A stretch of DNA of 48,107 nt from Clostridiaceae bacterium. Lineage in GTDB: Bacteria > Bacillota > Clostridia > Oscillospirales > Acutalibacteraceae. Positions 37,309 to 48,107 of this stretch are shown here, piece after piece. The number at the start of each line of letters is the position of its first letter. The first letter of the stretch is position 1. The stretch lies in NCBI GenBank assembly GCA_016280595.1, contig JAEEHB010000036.1:1-48107 (forward strand), given 5' to 3'. The notes beneath the pieces are model-generated. The model saw only the letters and a list, made by a program, of their open reading frames with translations. It ran no database searches and was not told the origin of the DNA. A program made the translations under genes and the position numbers.

Positions 37309-39057
37309 ATGAAAAATTTCGGTATCAAAGCGGTAAGCGTTGTGCTTGCGGTTTCGCTGCTTGTGGGCGGATGTTTCACGGCAAGTGCATCGGCACTCGA
37401 TGTTGAAAAAGCTCTCACTCACGCGGGCGTAGGCGCGCTCGGCGGAATAGTTAAAGGCCTTATAGGCGGGCTTTGCGCCATAGTGCCCGACAGCGCAAAA
37501 ACGAAAAAACTCAGTGAAAAGACTTCGGAGAATTTCTACTCCGGCACCGAAACGATGCTTGACTCCCCCGCCCCGGGCGCGCAGTGGCAGCTCGGCTACG
37601 CGAAGTCTTCGCTTGTGCCCGACGATATACTTGACGAAGGCACCGAGTATTATCTCGGCGGTTTCCTTACCCTTGACAACGGTATGAACAACAAGATTGA
37701 GGAAGTAATTGACGATATGCAGGTCAGGGTAATCGCGCTCTCCGATTCAAGCGACAGAGGCGTGAGCGTATTTGCAAACGTTGACTGCATCGGCTTCTGC
37801 AACAGCGACATCAAAGTGGTAAGGCAGTATCTCAAAGACCTTAATCTCGATGTTGATTTCAACAGCGTAAACATTTCTTCCACTCACTGCCACAGCTGCA
37901 TTGACACGCAGGGACTGTGGACCAATACATTCAAAAAGATTTTCGGCAATCTTTTCAAGTCATATATTCCCTTTGCGAAACTTGAAAGAGGCGCAAACGA
38001 AGAATGGCTTGACGGCGTGTGCCATATCATAGCAAACAGCATCAAGGCGGCTGTTGAGGATATGACACCCGGCACAATGACTTACGCCGTGAAAACTCTC
38101 AACCCCGAATATTTTGACAACAGAAACAGGAAGTCATCAACAAGCCTGTGCTCCGATATGTCAAGATTCATTTTCACGCCCGATGACAGCGGCAAAACTC
38201 CGACCATGCTCGTAAACATAAACGCCCATCCCGATGTTGTAGGCCTTGCAACAAGCGACCCGCAGGATAACGGCAGACAGCTTTCCGGCGACTATGTTTA
38301 TTATCTGGGCAAAAGGATTGAAGAGGGCGGCTACAACTTTATGTTTGTAAACGGAGCCATCGCGGGCATCTACTACGGCAGAGGCCTTTCAAACGACGGC
38401 GTAGACCTCGAAAGAAGATATATGCAGGCCGTGAGATACGGCACGGAAATGGGCAACATAGCCCTAAGCCTCACGAAGACCTATGATGAGATTTCAAGAG
38501 AGGCGGACTGGGATACAATCAACGCGGAATCCGAGGGCAACGAGCATTACACCCTCTGGTTTGAAGGCTGGGAGCCCGTTGAGGAGCGCGAGATTGAGCC
38601 TGTGCTCAACATAAGGCTCAAAGAAATTCAGGTGCCAGTAACAAATCCGCTTATCAAACTTGTGGGCAAACTCGAACTTACAAGTTACGAGATTTACAAA
38701 GACGGTCTTAGCAAATACTATATGTTCTCGGAAGTCGGCTACGCCGAATTCGGCGATGTTAAAATCGCAATGGTGCCCGGCGAACTCGTGCAGGATGTTA
38801 TGTACGGCGGCGGCTCTCTCACGGCAGAGGGTTCGTTCAGCGGCAAGGATTTCGGCCTGCCTTACATAAGGGAAATCTTCGGTGAAGATACAATCTGCTT
38901 CGGCCTGTGCAACGACGCTTTCGGCTACATAGTACCCGACAATGATTACTGCCTCGCAATAGCGGACGACCACTATCAGGAACTCATTTCACTCGGTGAC
39001 AAAACCGCATCTACAGTTGTCAAAGGACTTATGGAGATTGCGGAAGAAATAAAATAA
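37309..39057 (+). CDS. secreted neutral ceramidase-like (PF04734-type) protein
   Basis: This 582-residue exported protein has a signal peptide (about residues 1-27; the run LLVGGCF also offers a possible lipobox) and then a ceramidase-N-like domain. Marks of the fold are VFANVDCIGFCNSDIKVV, the metal-ligand motif ISSTHCHSCIDTQG (about residue 190), NINAHPDVVG and VPGELVQDVM. As in the paralogue at 28515-29951, the GDVSPN serine motif is missing and the region reads VNGAIAGIYYG. The segment IVPDNDYCLAIAD near the end matches the paralogue's VPPNDFIL. Substrate unknown. It has AAGGAG 10 nt before the ATG and forms an operon with the esterase behind it. Confidence 0.65.
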   Translation: MKNFGIKAVSVVLAVSLLVGGCFTASASALDVEKALTHAGVGALGGIVKGLIGGLCAIVPDSAKTKKLSEKTSENFYSGTETMLDSPAPGAQWQLGYAKSSLVPDDILDEGTEYYLGGFLTLDNGMNNKIEEVIDDMQVRVIALSDSSDRGVSVFANVDCIGFCNSDIKVVRQYLKDLNLDVDFNSVNISSTHCHSCIDTQGLWTNTFKKIFGNLFKSYIPFAKLERGANEEWLDGVCHIIANSIKAAVEDMTPGTMTYAVKTLNPEYFDNRNRKSSTSLCSDMSRFIFTPDDSGKTPTMLVNINAHPDVVGLATSDPQDNGRQLSGDYVYYLGKRIEEGGYNFMFVNGAIAGIYYGRGLSNDGVDLERRYMQAVRYGTEMGNIALSLTKTYDEISREADWDTINAESEGNEHYTLWFEGWEPVEEREIEPVLNIRLKEIQVPVTNPLIKLVGKLELTSYEIYKDGLSKYYMFSEVGYAEFGDVKIAMVPGELVQDVMYGGGSLTAEGSFSGKDFGLPYIREIFGEDTICFGLCNDAFGYIVPDNDYCLAIADDHYQELISLGDKTASTVVKGLMEIAEEIK

Positions 39058-40075: not shown

Positions 40076-40696
40076 TCAGATTTTCCCTTTCATCAGTTTT
40101 GAAAGCGGTTTGTATGCGGCGATGCAGATGATTGCGTCAATTACGCCCTTGATAAATGTGAACGGCACATTGAAAATCAGCAGGCAGTTGAACAGAGCGT
40201 TTGAGGTGGGCACTTCGGCAACGGGTGAAAGGATTTCTTTATACATCCCGATAATCGCCTCGAGCGGCAGATGGTAAAATTTGACATATGCGGGATATAC
40301 CACGAAATAGTTTAGCGGCAGGCAGATAATGCCCATAACCGCCGCGCCGGCAATCGAAGCGATGACCGCGCCCTTGAGGGTTTTGCTTTTTTTATAAATC
40401 AGACCGGCTACAAGCACAAAGGAGGCACCGAGCAGGAAGTTGCTCAGTTCACCCACAAAGGCGCTTGTGGTACCCTTGATTACAACATGCAGTATATTTT
40501 TGATAAGTTCAATGATTACGCCGTAAACCGGGCCGAGCGCAAAAGCGCCGAAGAGCGCGGGCAGGTCGGAAATATCAAACTTTATAAAAGCCGGCATCAC
40601 GGGCACGGGAAACTCCACAAACATCAGCACAAACGCCGCCGCAGAGAGCACCGCCGTGAGAGTAAGTTTGAAAATGTTGGATGAAGATTTGCTCAT
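40076..40696 (-). CDS. ribU: ECF transporter riboflavin S component
   Basis: This 206-residue protein with six membrane helices is the substrate-capture subunit of an energy-coupling factor importer for riboflavin. The RibU pattern is seen in FVEFPVPVMPAFIKFDISDL, followed by PALFGAFALGPVYGVIIELIKN (about residues 25-65) and GELSNFLLG. The energising module (EcfA, EcfA', EcfT) is not in the window and is presumably shared. The start is the ATG at 40696, after GGAGGAAAG. The FMN riboswitch upstream confirms the vitamin and predicts shut-off by high FMN. Confidence 0.93.
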   Translation of the reverse strand: MSKSSSNIFKLTLTAVLSAAAFVLMFVEFPVPVMPAFIKFDISDLPALFGAFALGPVYGVIIELIKNILHVVIKGTTSAFVGELSNFLLGASFVLVAGLIYKKSKTLKGAVIASIAGAAVMGIICLPLNYFVVYPAYVKFYHLPLEAIIGMYKEILSPVAEVPTSNALFNCLLIFNVPFTFIKGVIDAIICIAAYKPLSKLMKGKI

Positions 40697-40714
40697 TTTT
40701 CTTTCCTCCGCAAT

Positions 40715-40742
40715 AAAAAATGCTCCGATAATAACCGGAGCA
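40715..40742 (-). terminator. riboswitch-controlled terminator of ribU
   Basis: On the minus strand TGCTCCG and CGGAGCA form a 7-bp stem with an 8-nt loop, followed by TTTTTT (40720-40715), between the FMN aptamer and the ribU ribosome-binding site. This is the expression platform. Confidence 0.85.
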
Positions 40743-40759
40743 CATAATAAGCGGAAATA

Positions 40760-40877
40760 TAACATCCTCTCACATCCGGACTTTAACCGTCGGTTGCGGA
40801 ATTTCACCGCATCGGCCTCAATGAGGTTCGTGGACTGTAACCACCGGTGGGGAATTGCGCCCCGCCCCGAGAATTAT
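40760..40877 (-). ncRNA. FMN riboswitch (RFN element)
   Basis: On the minus strand the conserved RFN blocks occur in order: CTCGGGGCGGGGCGCAATTC, CCACCGGTGGT, AGTCC, GGTGAAATTCCGC, ACCGACGGTTAAAGTCCGGA and TGTGAGAGGA. These are close to the family consensus of a six-helix junction that binds flavin mononucleotide. The aptamer is followed by a terminator and then ribU, so FMN binding should stop transcription of the riboflavin importer. Confidence 0.95.
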
Positions 40878-40884
40878 CATTTGT

Positions 40885-40945: not shown

Positions 40946-40974
40946 TTGACAAAATAGCGATGCGGTTGTAAAAT
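40946..40974 (+). promoter_or_regulatory. promoter for the metal-trafficking operon
   Basis: TTGACA (40946-40951), a 17-nt spacer and TAAAAT (40969-40974), divergent from the ribU promoter with about 33 bp between the -35 boxes. Confidence 0.75.
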
Positions 40975-40979
40975 AAAAT

Positions 40980-40991
40980 ACAATATATTGT
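40980..40991 (+). promoter_or_regulatory. palindromic candidate operator at the transcription start
   Basis: ACAATATATTGT is a perfect 12-bp palindrome 5 nt after the -10 box, covering the predicted start point, where a repressor would block transcription. It does not match the Zur or Fur boxes I know; the regulator is unknown. Confidence 0.4.
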
Positions 40992-41008
40992 GTTAGCGAG
41001 GTGAAATG

Positions 41009-41293
41009 ATGAAAAAGCGTTCTTCTGTTATACTTGCCGTTGTTTTGTCATTTTGCCTGCTTATTTTATGCCTGAGCCCCGTAATCGGCTGCTGCCATAA
41101 CTGTAATGATGACGACTGCGCTATCTGCAGAGCGGTCTGCGCGGTGTCCAATCTGTTCAAAACGGCGGGACTGTTCCCGTTCACGGCGGCAGCGGCGGCA
41201 TACCTGATTATCGGGCAAATCAAAAGCGAACACAGCGCGGTCACGGTTACCGCATCGAGCCCCGTTGAACTTCATACCGTAATACTGTCCTGA
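41009..41293 (+). CDS. small Cys-rich membrane protein, putative metal-site protein
   Basis: This 94-residue protein has an N-terminal hydrophobic helix (about residues 7-27), then a compact cluster CCHNCNDDDCAICRAVC (28-44) with six Cys, one His and three Asp. A second hydrophobic helix (about 56-70) and a short Ser/Thr tail follow. If the first helix is not cleaved, the Cys cluster lies outside the membrane. Small proteins with HxCxxDDCxxC clusters recur in Firmicutes near metal transport genes (from memory). It starts at 41009, 7 nt after GAGG, and is the first gene of the operon with an ABC transporter. I infer a metal ligand role. Confidence 0.6.
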   Translation: MKKRSSVILAVVLSFCLLILCLSPVIGCCHNCNDDDCAICRAVCAVSNLFKTAGLFPFTAAAAAYLIIGQIKSEHSAVTVTASSPVELHTVILS

Positions 41294-41340
41294 CTTTCCG
41301 TTTGATTCTGTAAAACAATCAACCGGAAAGGAAATTGAAT

Positions 41341-42003
41341 ATGATAGAAATAAAAGGCGTGAGCAAGACGTTCAAAAACGAGACTGCTCTCGACTACAGG
41401 GATATTGCGTTTGAAAACGGCAAATCCTATATGCTGCTCGGCGCGTCCGGATGCGGCAAATCCACCCTGCTCAATATGATTGCAGGCATTCTTTCACCCG
41501 ACAAGGGCGAAATCATAATTGACGGCAAAGAAATGAGCGCCGCCTCACAGAAAGAAAAAGACAGATTCCGCATAGAAAAAATAGGCTATATTTTTCAGGA
41601 TTTCAAACTGATAAACGAAATGAGCGTGGCCGACAATATAAATATTCTCCGCCTTGAAGGCGTTGATACCTCCCGCGCGGATGAACTGCTGGAAAAACTC
41701 GGCATAGCCGAAAAGAAAAACAAAAAGGTAAAGCACCTCTCCGGCGGTCAGAAGCAGAGAGTTGCTATAGTCAGGGCGCTCGTAAAATCGCCCGATATCA
41801 TACTTGCAGACGAGCCCACAGGCAACCTCAACTACTCAATCGGCGAGCAGGTAATAAAAGAACTGACTCAGGCGGCGCAGGGCAAAACCCTTATCGCCGT
41901 GACTCACGATGAACGCCTGAGCAGATTTTTTGACTGCGTGATTGATATGAACAGCGTTACCGGAACACCCTATGACGCTGCTCAGGGAAAGGCGGTGAAC
42001 TGA
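41341..42003 (+). CDS. MacB/LolD-type ABC transporter ATPase
   Basis: This 220-residue single-domain ATPase belongs to the group that works with FtsX/MacB-fold permeases. Walker A GASGCGKST (about residues 36-44), the Q-loop IFQDFKL, signature HLSGGQKQRVAI, Walker B IILADEPTGNL and the switch histidine in AVTHDE are all intact. The start is ATG at 41341, 8 nt after AAAGGA; an in-frame TTG six bases upstream is less likely. It lies 1 nt before its permease. Such pairs usually perform mechanotransmission or lipoprotein/efflux work rather than classical import. Confidence 0.92.
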   Translation: MIEIKGVSKTFKNETALDYRDIAFENGKSYMLLGASGCGKSTLLNMIAGILSPDKGEIIIDGKEMSAASQKEKDRFRIEKIGYIFQDFKLINEMSVADNINILRLEGVDTSRADELLEKLGIAEKKNKKVKHLSGGQKQRVAIVRALVKSPDIILADEPTGNLNYSIGEQVIKELTQAAQGKTLIAVTHDERLSRFFDCVIDMNSVTGTPYDAAQGKAVN

Positions 42004-42004
42004 A

Positions 42005-43204
42005 ATGCTGTCCTTTGCCCTTAAAAATATGGCAATCAAAAAAGTCCAGGTTATCCTCGTGGCTGTATCGATAATCATCTCGGCGGGCGTTGCCGTGCTC
42101 GCATACAACACCGCAAACCAGGTGCGCGACGGTATAACAGGCACCGCAGGCTGGTATTCGGCAATCATCGGCCCTGCCGGAAGCAAAACCCAGCTGGCGA
42201 TGAACACAATGTATTTCACGGATGAGCCTCTCGGCACTATCCCCTACTCCGTTGTCAGTGAATTACAGCGCGACAGCCGCGTTAAGCGGGTTATCCCCTA
42301 CGCTATGGCGGACAATTACAACGGCTACCGTGTGGTCGGCACAGAACCCGCTTTTCTTGAAAGCAAAGAAATCGCCGAAGGCAGAATGTTTGATTACGCT
42401 GCGGAATATGAAGTAGTGCTCGGAGCAAGCGTTGCAAAGGTTTGCGATGTGAGCGTGGGCGATGATATATTCACAAGTCACTCCGCTTCCGAGCAGCACA
42501 CGCAGCCGCTCAAAGTTGTGGGCATACTCAAAGAAAGCCACTCGGCTTATGACAGGGTTGTGTTCACTCAGCTTAAGACAATATGGGCAGTGCACGAGCA
42601 CGAAGAGGAGCACGAAGAAGAGGAAGAGCACGAGCACGAGCATATGGAAAACAGCGTATGCGCGGCAATCGTCAGCACGGAAAATCCCTCTTTCGCAATG
42701 ACTCTCGTAAGTGATTACGGCGGCAAAATCATAGCAGATGAAGACGGCGACTCGGTCACCCTTCAGGCGATTGAGCCGATGGAAACGGTGAGAGGCATAC
42801 TTGAGGAAATCGACTCCACAAAGTATATCGTATATGTGCTGTGCGCCATTATCCTGATAATGAATGTGATAGTCATCTCGATTATCACGCTGCTCAATAT
42901 GTATAACTCGGCAAAAGAGATTTCGCTTATGCGCCTTATCGGCATAAGCATGAAAAAAATCAACCTGCTCTATATACTGCAAAACGGAATTATCGGACTT
43001 GTATCCGTATTGCTCGCTTTCGCAGTTTCAAAAATATGCCTCAGGTTTATGGATACCTACGCGTCATCCATGGGCGTTGTGCTTAACACGGCAAAGGTTT
43101 ACCCTATGGAATGGGTGATACTCGCCCTGGTGTTTGCCATTGCGGTGCTGCCGACAATAATCTGCACATTTGTAATGGCGCGGCGTGACAGCATAAGCGA
43201 ATGA
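42005..43204 (+). CDS. MacB/FtsX-type permease with His/Glu-rich extracellular stretch
   Basis: This 399-residue permease has one N-terminal membrane helix (about residues 14-34), a large extracellular domain (about 35-270) and three C-terminal helices, the type VII ABC fold. The extracellular domain resembles MacB periplasmic core (VVGTEPAFLESKEIAEGRMF, VVLGASVAKV, VVGILKESHSAYDRVVF). Residues 197-213 read HEHEEEHEEEEEHEHEH, with six His and eleven Glu and nothing else, a very likely transition-metal binding loop. Neighbours (Cys-rich protein before, CxxC lipoprotein after) point the same way. It resembles MacB-like zinc-linked loci such as zrg of Vibrio as I remember them; the direction of transport is unknown. 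Confidence 0.85.
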   Translation: MLSFALKNMAIKKVQVILVAVSIIISAGVAVLAYNTANQVRDGITGTAGWYSAIIGPAGSKTQLAMNTMYFTDEPLGTIPYSVVSELQRDSRVKRVIPYAMADNYNGYRVVGTEPAFLESKEIAEGRMFDYAAEYEVVLGASVAKVCDVSVGDDIFTSHSASEQHTQPLKVVGILKESHSAYDRVVFTQLKTIWAVHEHEEEHEEEEEHEHEHMENSVCAAIVSTENPSFAMTLVSDYGGKIIADEDGDSVTLQAIEPMETVRGILEEIDSTKYIVYVLCAIILIMNVIVISIITLLNMYNSAKEISLMRLIGISMKKINLLYILQNGIIGLVSVLLAFAVSKICLRFMDTYASSMGVVLNTAKVYPMEWVILALVFAIAVLPTIICTFVMARRDSISE

Positions 43205-43213
43205 GGTGATATT

Positions 43214-44176
43214 ATGAAAACGAAAAGATTTATCGCATTTTTGCTTGCGCTGATTACCGTGATATCGCTGAGTTCCTGCGGCGGAAAAAGTGCATCCGGC
43301 TCAGTGCAGGAAGCGGGCAACAAACTCAGTTTCAAATCCGCAATGAGTTATGACTACCTGAAAACGCTCGACGGCCGGCAGGTAACAATAAACGGCTACC
43401 TTGCCACAAGTTCACCCGCAGACGGCTCATTCATCTTTCTGATGAACCTCCCCTACCAGAGCTGTCCGTTCTGCAAACCGAACACTTCACAGCTTTCCAA
43501 TACGCTTGAGGTGTATCCAAAAAAAGATAAAAGATTTGACTACACCAATCAGGCGGTAAAAGTAACGGGAACGCTCGAAGTTGCACCCGACGAAAGCAAG
43601 GCGTTCACGGATACATTCGGCTACGAATTCAACTTCAAAATAGTCGACGCGGAGTATAAGATACTAAAGCCCGAAGAACTCGGCGAAGAATACGCAATGT
43701 GGTCAAAAATCGCAGAGTCGGATATAGTCAACAAACTTTACGAGATGTATAACTACGTCTGCTTCGTCTGCTCCTGGAACACTTACTCCGTAAAACCCTG
43801 GACAGATGAAAACGGCGAAAAGCACAACGGCTTTTATCTCTGGGATACCGACGCGAAGCATTTTCTTGAAGGGAAAGACGCACAGTATCATTACGGGTAT
43901 GAAGACGGTTACTTTGATAAAATAATCGCTTCAATCAAAGCCGTTGATCCCGATGAATTCGCGGACCTTGTAAAGAATGTTGAGAAATGCAAAGCGCTCT
44001 CCGAAAAAGCGGTGAAAGAACTCTTTGACGGAAACTACACGAAAAAGATGACTTATATAGAGGAATTCGACTGTGAGGACTATGTTTACACCCTTAACAA
44101 AGGCGATGAACTCATGAGCGAATACGACGCGCTTTACAGCGAATTTGCAAACTGGCTCGGCAGCTGGGAAATGTAA
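43214..44176 (+). CDS. lipoprotein with OB-like domain and CxxC motif
   Basis: This 320-residue lipoprotein has a lipobox LSSC (Cys22). Residues about 38-150 form a probable OB-fold: LKTLDGRQVTINGYLA, FIFLMNLPYQSCPFCKPN (Cys84, Cys87) and VKVTGTLEV. The pattern is similar to DUF3299-like domains found beside MacB-type transporters. The second half (about 155-320) is mainly helical, with VCFVCSWNTYSVKPW containing another CxxC and a few His residues. It starts 9 nt after the permease, with a GAGGTGAT site. It is the likely extracytoplasmic metal-binding or redox partner of the permease; this is inference. Confidence 0.75.
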   Translation: MKTKRFIAFLLALITVISLSSCGGKSASGSVQEAGNKLSFKSAMSYDYLKTLDGRQVTINGYLATSSPADGSFIFLMNLPYQSCPFCKPNTSQLSNTLEVYPKKDKRFDYTNQAVKVTGTLEVAPDESKAFTDTFGYEFNFKIVDAEYKILKPEELGEEYAMWSKIAESDIVNKLYEMYNYVCFVCSWNTYSVKPWTDENGEKHNGFYLWDTDAKHFLEGKDAQYHYGYEDGYFDKIIASIKAVDPDEFADLVKNVEKCKALSEKAVKELFDGNYTKKMTYIEEFDCEDYVYTLNKGDELMSEYDALYSEFANWLGSWEM

Positions 44177-44338: not shown

Positions 44339-44450
44339 ATATTTCGGGGTGTAAGAACCTGAAGCTGTGCTTCAGAACCTTGTTACTCGCTACGCTCGTA
44401 ATATGCGCAGCGCTACACCCCTCACCTAAAACTTTATATTTCGGGGTGTA
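44339..44450 (+). other. tRNA leader with repeat of the tRNA 5' end and alternative hairpins
   Basis: ATATTTCGGGGTGTA occurs at 44339-44353 and again at 44436-44450, where it forms the tRNA 5' end. Between them lie a CTGAAGC/GCTTCAG hairpin (44359-44375) and GCGCTACACCCC (44410-44421). The last segment can pair either with the upstream GGGGTGTA (44346-44353, 8 bp) or, over 12 perfect bp, with the tRNA's own 44443-44454. The second fold would hide the RNase P cleavage site. It may be a regulatory leader or the scar of a small insertion. Confidence 0.5.
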
Positions 44451-44517
44451 GCGCAGATGGTAGCGCGCTTGGTTCGGGACCAAGAGGCCGTGGGTTCAAA
44501 TCCCGCCACTCCGACCA
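44442..44517 (+). tRNA. tRNA-Pro (anticodon CGG)
   Basis: A 76-nt cloverleaf with acceptor CGGGGTG/CACTCCG (one G-U), D-arm with GATGGTAGC, anticodon stem CTTGG/CCAAG and loop TTCGGGA (anticodon CGG, reading CCG). The T-arm has GTGGG-TTCAAAT-CCCGC, and the 3' CCA is encoded. A first base of C is usual for bacterial tRNA-Pro. A terminator follows directly. Confidence 0.95.
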
Positions 44518-45170: not shown

Positions 45171-45539
45171 TTATTCTGCCGCTTCATCCTGCTCAAACAC
45201 GGCGGAGATATCTTTGATGATAACCTGGTCGCCGGTGAGAAGGTATGTATCCGGGCTGCCGCAGTGCGGGCACTTCTTGCCGTATTCGGTTGTGCGGTAG
45301 GTTTCGCCGCAGGCACGGCAATAGGTTCTGCCCTCGATTATTATCATCTCAAGCTCGGCCTCTTCAAGGTATTCCGTCCTTTTTTTTGCCCAGTTGAAAG
45401 CATCGAGAAACAGCTCCGGCACGATGGTGCTCACTTCGCCTATCTCCATCGTGATACCCACAACCTTCTGAGCGTTATTGTCGGCGGCTATTTTGTCCAC
45501 CTGCTCAACGACGTTCATTACAATACCGAGTTCGTGCAT
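45171..45539 (-). CDS. hypA: HypA-type nickel metallochaperone
   Basis: This 122-residue protein has the N-terminal nickel-binding MHELGI (His2, Glu3) and a zinc ribbon CRACGE...CPHCGS (about residues 74-95). HypA delivers nickel to [NiFe]-hydrogenases, together with HypB. The start is ATG at 45539, preceded by AAAAAGG, 4 nt after the stop of the large Fe-S flavoprotein gene; the longer reading would add a non-conserved basic N-terminus. No other hyp gene or hydrogenase is in the window, although the operon continues past the right edge. An acidic tail follows the zinc ribbon. Confidence 0.9.
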   Translation of the reverse strand: MHELGIVMNVVEQVDKIAADNNAQKVVGITMEIGEVSTIVPELFLDAFNWAKKRTEYLEEAELEMIIIEGRTYCRACGETYRTTEYGKKCPHCGSPDTYLLTGDQVIIKDISAVFEQDEAAE

Positions 45540-45543
45540 ATTA

Positions 45544-48107
45544 TCAGCCTTTTTGCGCCTTTTTCCACTCTTTGCGCTTTGCACGCATAATCTTTGCCTC
45601 TTCGGAGCCGGAGTTCGCGATTATCTTGCCTATACGCGAAATCTCGTATTTCATAAGCCCCGTTACCTTGTCCTCGGCTACGCGCATATCCGAGCACTTC
45701 GGGTTATCCCTGACAAGGTGGATTGCGTCAAACTGGCACTTGGTGGTGCACAGGCCGCAGCCGATGCAGAGGTTCGGGTCAACATACGATGCGCCGCAGG
45801 AGAGACATCTTGCCGTCTCGGTCTTTACCTGCTCCTCGGTGAGGGTAAGGTGAAGATCCTTATATGACATTCTGTGGTCTTCGGACTCATCCATACCGGC
45901 TTCCTGTCTGCCGGCTGAATCGTAATCGGGGAAGGTGATGTCATCCTTGTCAAGCGGAGTGTATGCGCGCCTGTTTCTGCCTATGGTCATATCTGCCTTG
46001 GGCCTTACAAAGCGGTGAAGGCTCTCCGCCGCCTCGTGACCTGCCGCGATGGCGTCAATGACAAATTTGGGTCCGGTATAAACATCGCCGCCCACAAAGA
46101 TATCTTCCTCAGCGGTCTGGTAGGTGAATTTGTCGGCTACGGGATAATTGCCGTGCCAGAATTCAACCTTGGTGCCCTCAAGCAGCTTGCCCCATTCGAT
46201 TGCCTGGCCGATTGCGAAAACAATCTTGTCCGCCTTGACCTCGATGGTGTCGTTCTCGTCATACTTCGGGGCAAACTTGCCGTCGGTGTCATAGACGGAA
46301 ACGCAGCGTTTGAAGATGATTCCGGTAACCTTGCCCGATTCATCGGTGAGCACCTCTTTGGGTCCCCAGCTGTTGCAGATTTCGATATCCTCTTCGAGAG
46401 TTTCGGCTATCTCTTCTTTTGATGCGGGCATAATGTCGCGGGATTCGAGTGAGAACATCTTAACGCTTGACGCGCCCAGACGGTGAGCGTTTCTCGCGCA
46501 GTCAACGGCAACATTACCGCCGCCGACCACTACAACATCGCCTGTGAAGTTCTCTCTGTTTTCATAGCTCTTGCGAAGGTATGAAACAGCGATATCGGTG
46601 CCTTCGGCGTTATCGTTTGCAACGCCCGGGCGTCTGCCGCCCTGGCAGCCGATTGCGATATAGAAGGCCTTGTAGCCCTGCTTGCGCAGCTCATCAATGG
46701 TGACATCCTCGCCCACATTGACTCCGCACTTGATTTCCACGCCGAGCTTGCGCAGAACATCTATCTCGGCCTCGATGACATCCTTCTCAAGCTTGTAGCT
46801 CGGGATGCCGTAGGTCAGCATTCCGCCGGGAGTGGGGTTCTTTTCAAATACAGTGGGTGTGTAGCCCATCTCGGCAAGGTAATATGCGGCAGAAAGGCCT
46901 GCGGGGCCGCCGCCGATGATTGCAATCTTGTCATCCCATTTGCCGTAAACGGACTGAACTATCTTTTCGGGAACAAAGCGGTCCTCGCTCCTGAGCTCGA
47001 GGTCAGCCACGAATTTCTTTACTGCGTCGATTGAAACGGGGGCATCCACAAGTCCTCTTGTGCAGGCGTCTTCGCAGCGCTTGTTGCACACGCGGCCGCA
47101 AACTGAGGGGAAGGGATTCTCCGTCTTTATCATAGCAAGCGCTTCGCGGTATTTGCCGTCACGCGCGAGCTTAAGATAGGCCTGGATGGGCACATGGGCG
47201 GGGCAGGCCGCTTTACACGGTGCGCTGCCCTGAGCGTAGGTGTTTGACATAACCTTGGTGTCGCGGTAGTTCTCATCCCAGGCATATTCGCCCCAGCGCA
47301 CCTTGTCGGGAAGGATTGCGTGCTTATACTGAACGGGGGAGCCGTCTTTCTTGCACAGCTTCTGGCCGAGCTTGACAGCGCCTGCCGGGCAGATTTCAAC
47401 GCACTTGCCGCAGGCGACGCACTTCTCGCGGTCAACCTCTGAGGTATAGGCGCTCCTTGAAAGGTAGGGGGTGTTGAAGAGCATTGAGGTCCTGAGCGCG
47501 TTGCAGATGCGGACATTGCAGTTGCAGATATCGAAAATCTTGTTTTCACCGTCGATATTCGTTATCTGGTGTACATATCCGTTCTTTTCGGCGAGCTCAA
47601 ATATCTCGAGGGCGCGTTCTTTGGTGATATAGTGGGCGCGGTGGGTTTCAACGGCGTAATCTGCCATATCGCCCAGCTGCACGCACCAGTCGTTTACATC
47701 GTCGGTACAGCCCTCGTCAAGCACTGCTCTTGAAGCTCTGCAGGAGCAGATGCCGGCGGCGATGTGGCCGTCATATTTTTCAAGCCAGTATGAAATCTTT
47801 TCGAGAGTGATAGATTCCTGCTGAGCGCTGATTGCCTTCTCAACGGGGATAACATGCATGCCGATACCCATACCGCCCGGCGCTACCATGTGGGTGATGC
47901 CGGCAAGGGGAATATAGGTCATTCTCTCAAAAAAGCTGGTTACGGCAGGGTTCTTCTCGATACGGTCAAGCGAGGAGTTGAAAAGCTCCGCCGAGCCGGG
48001 CACGAAGAACGGGAGCCTGTATCTCTTGATTTTGGGGGCATCCTTTATAGGATGATCGTGCTCGAGATTGTGTGTGTAGTTGTCACCGTAATCGTATTCG
48101 ATGATGC
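45544..48107 (-). CDS. multi-cluster Fe-S flavoprotein, NAD(P)-dependent, 5' end outside the window
   Basis: An open frame of at least 853 codons continues without a stop to the window edge, so the start is not seen; a GTG at 48003 is internal. Cys-rich motifs occur near the start (ICSCRAS, CNCNVRIC), then a ferredoxin CVACGKCVEICPAG. A glutamate-synthase small-subunit-like part follows, with Fe-S region CGRVCNKRCEDAC, FAD site IIGGGPAGLSAAYYL, NAD(P) site VVVGGGNVAVDCAR and AIGQ. A C-terminal CIGCGLCTTKCQFDAIH closes it. It moves electrons between NAD(P)H and a ferredoxin-type partner. Coupling to hypA suggests hydrogenase-linked metabolism, which is inference. Confidence 0.85.
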   Translation of the reverse strand, partial: IIEYDYGDNYTHNLEHDHPIKDAPKIKRYRLPFFVPGSAELFNSSLDRIEKNPAVTSFFERMTYIPLAGITHMVAPGGMGIGMHVIPVEKAISAQQESITLEKISYWLEKYDGHIAAGICSCRASRAVLDEGCTDDVNDWCVQLGDMADYAVETHRAHYITKERALEIFELAEKNGYVHQITNIDGENKIFDICNCNVRICNALRTSMLFNTPYLSRSAYTSEVDREKCVACGKCVEICPAGAVKLGQKLCKKDGSPVQYKHAILPDKVRWGEYAWDENYRDTKVMSNTYAQGSAPCKAACPAHVPIQAYLKLARDGKYREALAMIKTENPFPSVCGRVCNKRCEDACTRGLVDAPVSIDAVKKFVADLELRSEDRFVPEKIVQSVYGKWDDKIAIIGGGPAGLSAAYYLAEMGYTPTVFEKNPTPGGMLTYGIPSYKLEKDVIEAEIDVLRKLGVEIKCGVNVGEDVTIDELRKQGYKAFYIAIGCQGGRRPGVANDNAEGTDIAVSYLRKSYENRENFTGDVVVVGGGNVAVDCARNAHRLGASSVKMFSLESRDIMPASKEEIAETLEEDIEICNSWGPKEVLTDESGKVTGIIFKRCVSVYDTDGKFAPKYDENDTIEVKADKIVFAIGQAIEWGKLLEGTKVEFWHGNYPVADKFTYQTAEEDIFVGGDVYTGPKFVIDAIAAGHEAAESLHRFVRPKADMTIGRNRRAYTPLDKDDITFPDYDSAGRQEAGMDESEDHRMSYKDLHLTLTEEQVKTETARCLSCGASYVDPNLCIGCGLCTTKCQFDAIHLVRDNPKCSDMRVAEDKVTGLMKYEISRIGKIIANSGSEEAKIMRAKRKEWKKAQKG

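Follow-up and report, generated by a model that had tools for sequence, protein, structure and literature searches.

The closest described counterparts of the operon analysed here are the zrg operons of Gram-negative bacteria. The five zrg genes of Vibrio parahaemolyticus are up 76- to 206-fold under zinc limitation and the Vibrio operons begin with a small gene, zrgD (DUF2607), itself up 147-fold (PMC9817125), and V. cholerae without ZnuA needs ZrgA for growth in zinc-poor medium, ZrgB being called MacB-like (PMC9820375). In Pseudomonas aeruginosa, PA4064-PA4065 have been modelled as a MacB exporter (PMC11481552), and PA4066 has an OB-like fold and reportedly no known role (PMC8561739). Direction and cargo of these systems are disputed, zinc uptake being put forward for Vibrio and pyochelin-cobalt export for Pseudomonas. 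Here we describe a related operon at positions 40,946 to 44,176 of a stretch of 48,107 nucleotides from a Clostridiaceae bacterium (contig JAEEHB010000036.1), "the window" below being that whole stretch. Its four co-directional genes, on the + strand, encode a small Cys-rich protein (gene 1), an ABC ATPase, a MacB-fold permease and an OB-fold lipoprotein with CxxC motifs. On balance we believe that this is probably a zinc-responsive operon, in which a cis-acting nascent-chain leader would stand before a Zrg-like ABC machine working at the outer face of the membrane.

Leaders of the kind proposed have been described for other metals and for protein export. CruR is the exported first open reading frame (ORF) of copper genes, with 45 residues from CXXC to RAPP; its homologues are mostly proteobacterial, with few in Firmicutes, Planctomycetes and Deinococcus (PMC9426467). 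CutF is likewise an exported first ORF controlling copper genes, in which 45 residues separate a Cys pair from a C-terminal motif and a stem-loop masks the ribosome-binding site that follows (PMC9973294), and metal sensing has been suggested for small RAPP/RGPP proteins upstream of metal genes (PMC12992588). SecM, MifM, VemP and CliM combine a membrane or exported nascent chain, a C-terminal motif and a hairpin hiding the downstream ribosome-binding site (PMC10987492, PMC13183943); hairpins are given for MifM and CliM, and the stall position of Clostridioides difficile CliM lies directly before the stop codon (PMC13183943).

Like ZrgABCDE and PA4063-PA4066, the window operon has a separate LolD-type ATPase and a MacB-fold permease with the same three His residues, an exported OB-fold partner (DUF3299 there) and, as in the zrg operons of Vibrio and Aeromonas, a small first gene. 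Unlike them it is without ZrgA (DUF2796), no Zur box was found before it, it belongs to a Gram-positive lineage, and the OB-fold partner, here a lipoprotein, has CPFC and an additional helical domain. Gene 1 resembles CutF of Rhodobacter and CruR of Bordetella in being a seemingly exported small first ORF whose Cys pair precedes a conserved C-terminal motif by about 45 residues, and CutF also in a predicted stem-loop that hides the next ribosome-binding site (probability of being unpaired, P(unpaired), below 0.25 in 18 of 29 leaders). It differs from both in having neither a listed DUF2946 match nor RAPP, in a motif that ends at the stop codon, and in that the Clostridial leaders precede zinc-linked genes, not copper genes; since DUF2946 and RAPP are missing, we say that it may work like CutF and CruR, not that it is a member of their family. 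From the Sec/YidC monitors SecM, MifM, VemP and CliM it is set apart by a Cys/His cluster at a fixed distance and by its metal-transporter targets. A literature search, which most subscription papers lay beyond, turned up neither a description of such a leader nor one of a Zrg-type operon in a Gram-positive lineage.

The probable leader gene and the predicted hiding of a ribosome-binding site

The features of the window on which the regulatory part of the argument turns are the following.

41006-41293, + strand: gene 1, the probable leader gene, 95 amino acids, with an N-terminal hydrophobic segment and H31-x-C33...C38-x2-C41
41261-41290, + strand: its last ten residues, PVELHTVILS, a candidate arrest or pause motif
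41294-41330, + strand: predicted RNA hairpin CTTTCCGTTTGATT/AATCAACCGGAAAG, directly 3' of the leader stop, its 3' arm over the ribosome-binding site
41326-41331, + strand: GAAAGG, ribosome-binding site for the ATPase, which is predicted to be hidden with P(unpaired) 0.09
41341-42003, + strand: LolD/FtsE-type ABC ATPase, PF00005 (ABC_tran) 4.6e-38; ATG 41341, behind GAAAGG, is better placed as its start than the alternative TTG 41335

The module was followed through 37 related loci, all bearing Clostridia or Bacillota names and obtained by a single scan of genome contigs, which together with the window make 38 carriers. ATPase, permease and lipoprotein genes are adjacent in all 37, as far as the contigs extend, and the flanking genes vary: besides the leader, the largest cluster of neighbours is DUF134 at six loci (two of them Pfam-checked), and the next clusters comprise 3-4 loci. 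The small Cys gene stands beside the trio in 31 of the 37, with a contig-end fragment in L031, and is absent from L007, L026 and L028 (L004 and L005 could not be judged), so that, window included, it is found in 33 of 36 judgeable loci. At two of the three leaderless loci (L026, L028) a putative heavy-metal permease, ArsP_2, occupies the leader position, and at the third (L007) a DUF134/Nitro_FeMo-Co protein does. The preliminary description of this DNA had set homologous operons that mostly lack both the Cys cluster and the permease His loop as counter-evidence to itself; the survey yielded no such counter-evidence, the small Cys gene being present at most judgeable loci and the loop in 34 of 34 complete permeases.

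Gene 1 carries six Cys within 17 residues, CCHNCNDDDCAICRAVC. As this density was reached in 169 of 20,000 shuffles of the protein, the count alone is a modest argument and the case from chance was dropped; the real evidence is conservation in the relatives. When 29 leaders were aligned on the stop codon, the last ten residues had a mean pairwise identity of 0.50 as against 0.11 for residues -11 to -40. The common motif is close to P-V-x-L-K-V-K-L-S-D/N and runs into the stop codon, with Pro at -10 in 20 of the 29. Synonymous codons vary within it (for Leu at -3, CTT 12, CTC 4, CTA 5, CTG 1 and TTG 1), and the residues are conserved, which points to selection on the peptide. The spacing is held as well: from the second Cys of CxxC there are 53.3 +/- 1.3 residues to the leader end (range 50-56, n=31) and 40-46 to residue -10 (n=31), whereas the segment before CxxC varies from 35 to 58 residues with starts as called. 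Gene 1 is thus probably a cis-acting leader, a nascent-chain metal sensor in the manner of CutF and CruR, and not a transporter subunit. The preliminary description had instead taken it for a first component differing from that of the Vibrio operons; a regulatory leader is more likely, and the Vibrio operons, too, begin with a small gene.

Folding predictions pair the ribosome-binding site for the ATPase with the final codons of the leader or with bases just past the leader stop. Over 29 of 32 leaders (L008, L022 and L035 left out, the last, a copy of L033, being absent from one of the alignments too, and the ATPase starts of L009, L012, L016, L025 and L033 re-chosen by hand), its mean P(unpaired) is 0.22, compared with 0.45 when the upstream bases are shuffled (Wilcoxon p 8e-8); for 19 dereplicated loci the values are 0.21 and 0.42 (p 6e-5). 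The mean at 35 other tandem junctions on the same contigs is 0.51 (p 5e-7 against the leaders), and only 6 of these 35 fall below 0.25. The hiding effect is therefore strong, yet not universal, and because related loci are not independent the p values serve only as a guide. A consensus fold of the subgroup containing the window has 14 pairs, two of them listed with a change on both sides; that of a second leader set has 18 pairs, six with such a change.

Related candidate leaders before znuA

The same leader family was found in front of a second transporter. At E <= 1e-4 the leader profile matches 22 of 391 class genomes, namely the window genome and 21 others, a lower bound, with at most 13 candidates scored per genome. 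Regions of 1.8-5.3 kb were taken around 20 of the 21 other leaders, and Pfam identifies the long ORF that follows as ZnuA in 19 genomes; in two more it is ZnuA-like as read by eye, namely in L221, which a position filter had passed over, and in L209, which lay outside the 20 regions, so that a related leader precedes a ZnuA-type gene in all 21. These leaders end alike, for example in TLVSLKVKLSD or TPVMLKVKMTD, and have 53-57 residues after CxxC (19 leaders, the ORFs having been picked with a preference for 40-60 residues after CxxC). Their ribosome-binding sites are also predicted to be hidden, with P(unpaired) 0.19 against 0.36 over 19 rows (p 2e-5), one row, L213, being tied to the wrong ORF end and having a value of its own of 0.33. 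Among the carriers of the trio, 32 of 38 have one strong leader match (E below 1e-11), which is the number of loci with a whole leader beside the trio. The window operon thus has in common with the zinc importer ZnuABC of 21 class genomes a leader of one family, although the transporter types are unrelated and the window operon has no ZnuA-like protein. At one znuA locus (L210:1425-2954), ZnuA and ZinT domains are joined in a single protein of 510 amino acids behind a leader of this family.

The strongest argument for zinc, and equally for regulation, is that a single leader family precedes two systems of unrelated type, ZnuA being one. Proteins of the ZnuA family can work with manganese as well, so that the family name by itself leaves the metal unsettled; zinc is the favoured metal.

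Permease, lipoprotein and the layout of the locus

The proposed machine is encoded by the ATPase gene and by the following features.

42005-43204, + strand: MacB-fold FtsX permease of a Zrg-like clan, with MacB_PCD and FtsX domains
42479-42499, + strand: permease codons H159 to H165, two of the three kept His, found in 22 of 22 permeases compared
42593-42643, + strand: permease H197, the third kept His, with the His/Glu loop 197-213 (17 residues), modelled as disordered
43214-44176, + strand: lipoprotein with an OB domain and lipobox LSSC

All ORFs named in the preliminary description were located as it had placed them, and the His/Glu run of the permease is exactly residues 197-213; the longest run in 20,000 shuffles of the protein is 6. 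The permease model has a predicted local distance difference test score (pLDDT) of 81.5, with low confidence at residues 200-214, and matches LolCDE, MacB, YknZ and the haem exporter HrtBA. Three alignment columns are His in 22 of 22 permeases, H159, H165 and H197, and no other column reaches 55 percent His. The 22 were chosen by hand: six of the 35 complete Clostridial permeases (window counted), nine from the phylum or order, four plasmid permeases from operons with a CPFC protein, and three Zrg permeases. Among the few aligned controls, LolC has none of the three His, LolE one (at 165), and MacB shows gaps at two of the positions and Tyr at the remaining one; the other FtsX permeases of eight genomes show no His triad, nearly all being gapped there. 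In the larger alignment of 34 complete permeases, H159, H197 and H199 are invariant and H197-x-H199 is followed in all 34 by an acidic loop of variable length; H165 is not listed as invariant in that alignment, where the gaps differ. In these alignments the three-His signature is retained and the His/Glu loop next to it varies. Particularly large His loops were seen in two further permease relatives, one with 66 His and repeats of HDDHHHDDH (L149:5476-7050, - strand) and one with 39 His in a single protein (L148:3584-4987).

A maximum-likelihood tree separates the 22 permeases from seven controls with support 98/95, the control branches being long and the root for drawing only. The window permease thereby falls outside MacB and LolC/LolE, in agreement with the likeness to Vibrio zrg to which the preliminary description had pointed. 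Within the same tree the three Zrg permeases are split from the other 19 (97/97). Searching plasmid records with the permease by tblastn gave 108 records. In Phaeobacter the operon reads Fur, DUF2796, ATPase, permease and DUF3299; a zrg operon of Aeromonas lies in a 4.9 Mb record deposited as a plasmid and is headed by a small ORF whose weak DUF2946 match (E 8e-4) is below the cut-off. That ORF (L042:3304-3618) has a CxxC 44 residues before RAPP and could be a RAPP arrest leader of a zinc operon outside the Gram-positive bacteria, so that Gram-negative zrg operons may share this control. ZrgA (PF10986, DUF2796) has no match among the four window proteins, while the Aeromonas ZrgA matches at 6.5e-58.

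The lipoprotein has CPFC at residues 84-87 (codons 43463-43474) and a second CxxC at 183/186; in 33 sequences C84, C87 and the PNT that follows are invariant, and C186 is nearly so. Profile searches placed the ATPase and the permease in families, and the lipoprotein had no Pfam or NCBIfam match over the cut-off. Its model (pLDDT 84) matches aspartyl/asparaginyl-tRNA synthetases, MCM, RPA and CST subunits, all of which contain OB domains, and at rank 13 the DUF3299 protein PA4066 (4hsp; E 4.5e-3, probability 1.00), only two matches having E <0.001. Pfam DUF3299 gives a weak match in three of 33 lipoproteins (best E 0.097), and hhalign aligns the lipoprotein to DUF3299 at E 1e-5 (probability 83). 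A second route leads through a family of OB proteins with CPFC, to which the lipoprotein aligns at E 3e-14 (probability 98) and which itself aligns to DUF3299 at 1e-8 (probability 96). PDB sequence profiles yielded no relative of the lipoprotein, and a DUF3299 search of 60 class genomes was uninformative, giving no match with 14 controls silent too. Judged from these profile comparisons, the lipoprotein is probably a remote relative of ZrgE/DUF3299.

The CPFC proteins occur in Deinococcus, Thermus and several Alphaproteobacteria together with alkaline phosphatase, whose gene lies directly upstream of the OB gene at 9 of 9 loci (L040, L041, L052-L055, L152-L154). At L040, L041, L052 and L053 the OB gene is followed by ATPase and permease genes, at L055 by genes for an ATPase and for an unnamed protein, and at L054 by neither. 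These operons, also present in some Bacillota, have the same core and the same three permease His as the window operon; they differ in that alkaline phosphatase precedes the OB gene (nine OB-first loci) and no such leader was seen there. Since alkaline phosphatase is an exported zinc enzyme, its place beside the CPFC gene suggests metal loading of a client. The shared three His, the permease tree and the OB partners that follow make it probable that the Clostridial, Zrg and CPFC cores are one old system. Within the phylum, the OB protein profile was found in 12 of 398 genomes, the window genome included, and eight of the other 11 have the whole trio. L147 and L150 have no such ATPase or permease near the OB gene; at L151:3578-5357 the trio is in pieces, ATPase and permease being present as short fragments and the OB frame being interrupted by stops, and is possibly decayed or badly assembled.

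The genes of the window operon are separated by 47, 1 and 9 bp, and their shared direction and short gaps suggest that all four are co-transcribed. A single promoter for them, as the preliminary description had it, fits a predicted element before gene 1.

40946-40974, + strand: sigma-70-like promoter TTGACA-17-TAAAAT, predicted by consensus scan (11 of 12 matches), 5' of gene 1
40980-40991, no strand given: 12-bp palindrome ACAATATATTGT 3' of the -10 box, among the relatives common only to L001

A flavin mononucleotide (FMN) riboswitch (40760-40878, - strand, 106.7 bits) leads the divergent gene for a ribU-like energy-coupling factor (ECF) transporter S component (40076-40807, - strand), and in L001 an FMN element likewise lies upstream on the opposite strand; in both it belongs to the divergent gene and was rejected as a control of the operon. 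In L024 an L10 leader (+ strand) lies 1.1 kb upstream of the leader gene, and no metal riboswitch was found among the 37 relatives. Elsewhere in the window, a secreted protein of 582 amino acids (37309-39057) with the segment NISSTHCHSC has no Pfam match up to E 0.1 and by eye resembles a neutral ceramidase. A tRNA gene lies at 44442-44514 (+ strand), and about 100 bp upstream there is a copy of TATTTCGGGGTGTA, which spans the tRNA start (window 44340-44514), perhaps the footprint of an excised or duplicated element. A gene for the nickel metallochaperone HypA (45171-45584, - strand) adjoins that of a large flavin adenine dinucleotide (FAD)/iron-sulfur oxidoreductase (45544-48003, - strand).

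Zinc, rival readings and significance

If gene 1 is a leader, its threading into the membrane would bring the H-x-C...CxxC cluster, which lies about 53 residues ahead of the stop, to the outer side, where it would sample metal. The conserved last ten residues would then either arrest the ribosome on the stop codon or let it go, and an arrested ribosome would keep open the hairpin that otherwise hides the ATPase ribosome-binding site, so that transporter expression would be set by metal at the translocon. The sign is likely that of CruR, with arrest and expression when metal is poor and release and silence when it is rich; the alternative is the opposite sign, as in CutF. The machine itself would consist of the ATPase and the permease, with its candidate three-His site and His/acid loop, working with the OB-fold lipoprotein, whose CxxC and C186 could hold metal. 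ATP-driven mechanotransmission would most likely pass zinc between the outer domain of the permease and the lipoprotein, serving either uptake or the loading of exported metalloproteins.

The metal reading is held because of the kinship to Zrg, the three kept His and the leader, and not because of the His run itself; by kinship a metal role is supported, with zinc the most likely metal. The preliminary description had proposed a metal role for this Gram-positive MacB-type operon, which these results and the leaders before ZnuA support; the His/Glu loop that it had pointed out varies, however, and is not the core site. Its further claim of a metal or thiol site in each protein, all at the outer face, fails for the ATPase, which in this family is the cytoplasmic subunit.

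A number of results weigh against a zinc-responsive leader operon. RAPP is absent from the 29 leaders compared, and DUF2946 is not in the best 25 of 56 families for 31 leaders, with at most one unlisted member possible. Eleven of 29 leaders have P(unpaired) at or above 0.25, whereas 6 of 35 control junctions lie below it, and a third set of seven leaders gave no consensus fold, because two hairpin layouts are mixed in it. A strict pattern found the leader at 0 of 43 other ZnuA loci in carriers and order genomes, so it marks only a subset of znu operons. ZnuA is depleted among the carriers, 13 of 38 having it compared with 124 of 197 genomes of the order (Fisher p 0.0012); this would favour the main reading, but it is uncorrected for kinship or completeness and the window genome is in both groups. 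A Fur-family gene was found in 29 of 38 carriers; the window genome, with a completeness of 78.5 percent, yielded no Fur-family gene and no ZnuA. Nor is there support for an enrichment of repressor boxes: upstream of 40 operons, Zur, Fur and AdcR consensus boxes were matched with at most three mismatches at 1, 4 and 12 loci, compared with 0.7, 1.7 and 16.4 after shuffling. Finally, in one genus, two genomes have cobalamin-linked genes ahead of the trio (partly by eye; CobS by Pfam), and pyochelin-cobalt export has been suggested for the Pseudomonas relative.

These last points bear on the possibility that cobalt or some other metal is the cargo of the machine, or that it exports a metallophore, as has been suggested for PA4064-PA4065, a reading to which we would give only a small chance. 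The genus in question has a cobalamin riboswitch and cobalamin genes upstream of the trio, pyochelin-cobalt export is the proposal made for P. aeruginosa (PMC11481552), and ArsP_2 and DUF134/NifX-like proteins are among the neighbours; set against these are the same-family leaders before ZnuA in 21 of 21 other genomes and the zinc regulation of zrg operons (PMC9820375, PMC9817125). At L144:85-3807, from a group other than the 37 relatives, the cobalamin riboswitch and cobalamin-linked genes lie directly upstream of the trio, with the riboswitch 2.9 kb before the ATPase gene. That the system is an ordinary MacB/LolCDE-type exporter of peptides or lipoproteins with an incidental His/Glu run is very improbable: the fold matches to LolCDE, MacB and YknZ are what it would predict, and the three kept His, the separate clan, the zinc-linked leader and an acidic His loop in 34 of 34 complete relatives are left aside by it.

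Other readings concern gene 1. It could be a working membrane metal chaperone or receptor that hands zinc to ZnuA or to the MacB-type machine, its C-terminus being a docking site and the hairpin merely coupling translation, which we regard as unlikely. A kept Cys/His cluster, the occurrence of the family with two kinds of zinc system, and the 147-fold rise of Vibrio zrgD, a small first gene, together with its operon under zinc limitation (PMC9817125) would all suit a chaperone. A near-fixed length from CxxC to the stop over an intervening sequence that is not kept would not, and a C-terminal motif meeting the stop codon beside a ribosome-binding-site hairpin carries the marks of a nascent-chain sensor. 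A leader that only couples translation, terminating ribosomes opening the hairpin while no metal is sensed, would account for the hidden site adjoining the leader stop, yet it leaves unexplained the kept His/Cys cluster, its fixed distance and the peptide-level conservation of the last ten residues, and so appears quite unlikely. We return, then, to the metal-sensing leader. In its boldest form, which we offer tentatively and with rather less than even confidence, the leaders would be an undescribed Clostridial class of zinc-sensing arrest peptides that stall at their own stop codon through a non-RAPP motif and control both ZnuABC and a Gram-positive Zrg-type machine; the latter would act wholly at the outer face, where zinc would be loaded from a permease site of three His onto the CxxC lipoprotein with its OB fold and onto client metalloenzymes.

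Zinc control in bacteria is usually ascribed to DNA-binding repressors such as Zur and AdcR. Gene 1 is best regarded as a candidate nascent-chain leader that would respond to zinc and that ends in a new C-terminal motif. The setting is that of anaerobic gut bacteria, with no Fur-family gene and no ZnuA found in the window genome as sequenced. The common three-His signature links the Gram-negative Zrg systems with those of Gram-positive bacteria and Deinococcus, and the Gram-positive version lets direction and cargo be asked where the direction of the Gram-negative systems is in dispute. If the reading is true, a nascent-chain zinc sensor common to two unrelated transporters would be a different way of reading metal outside the membrane.

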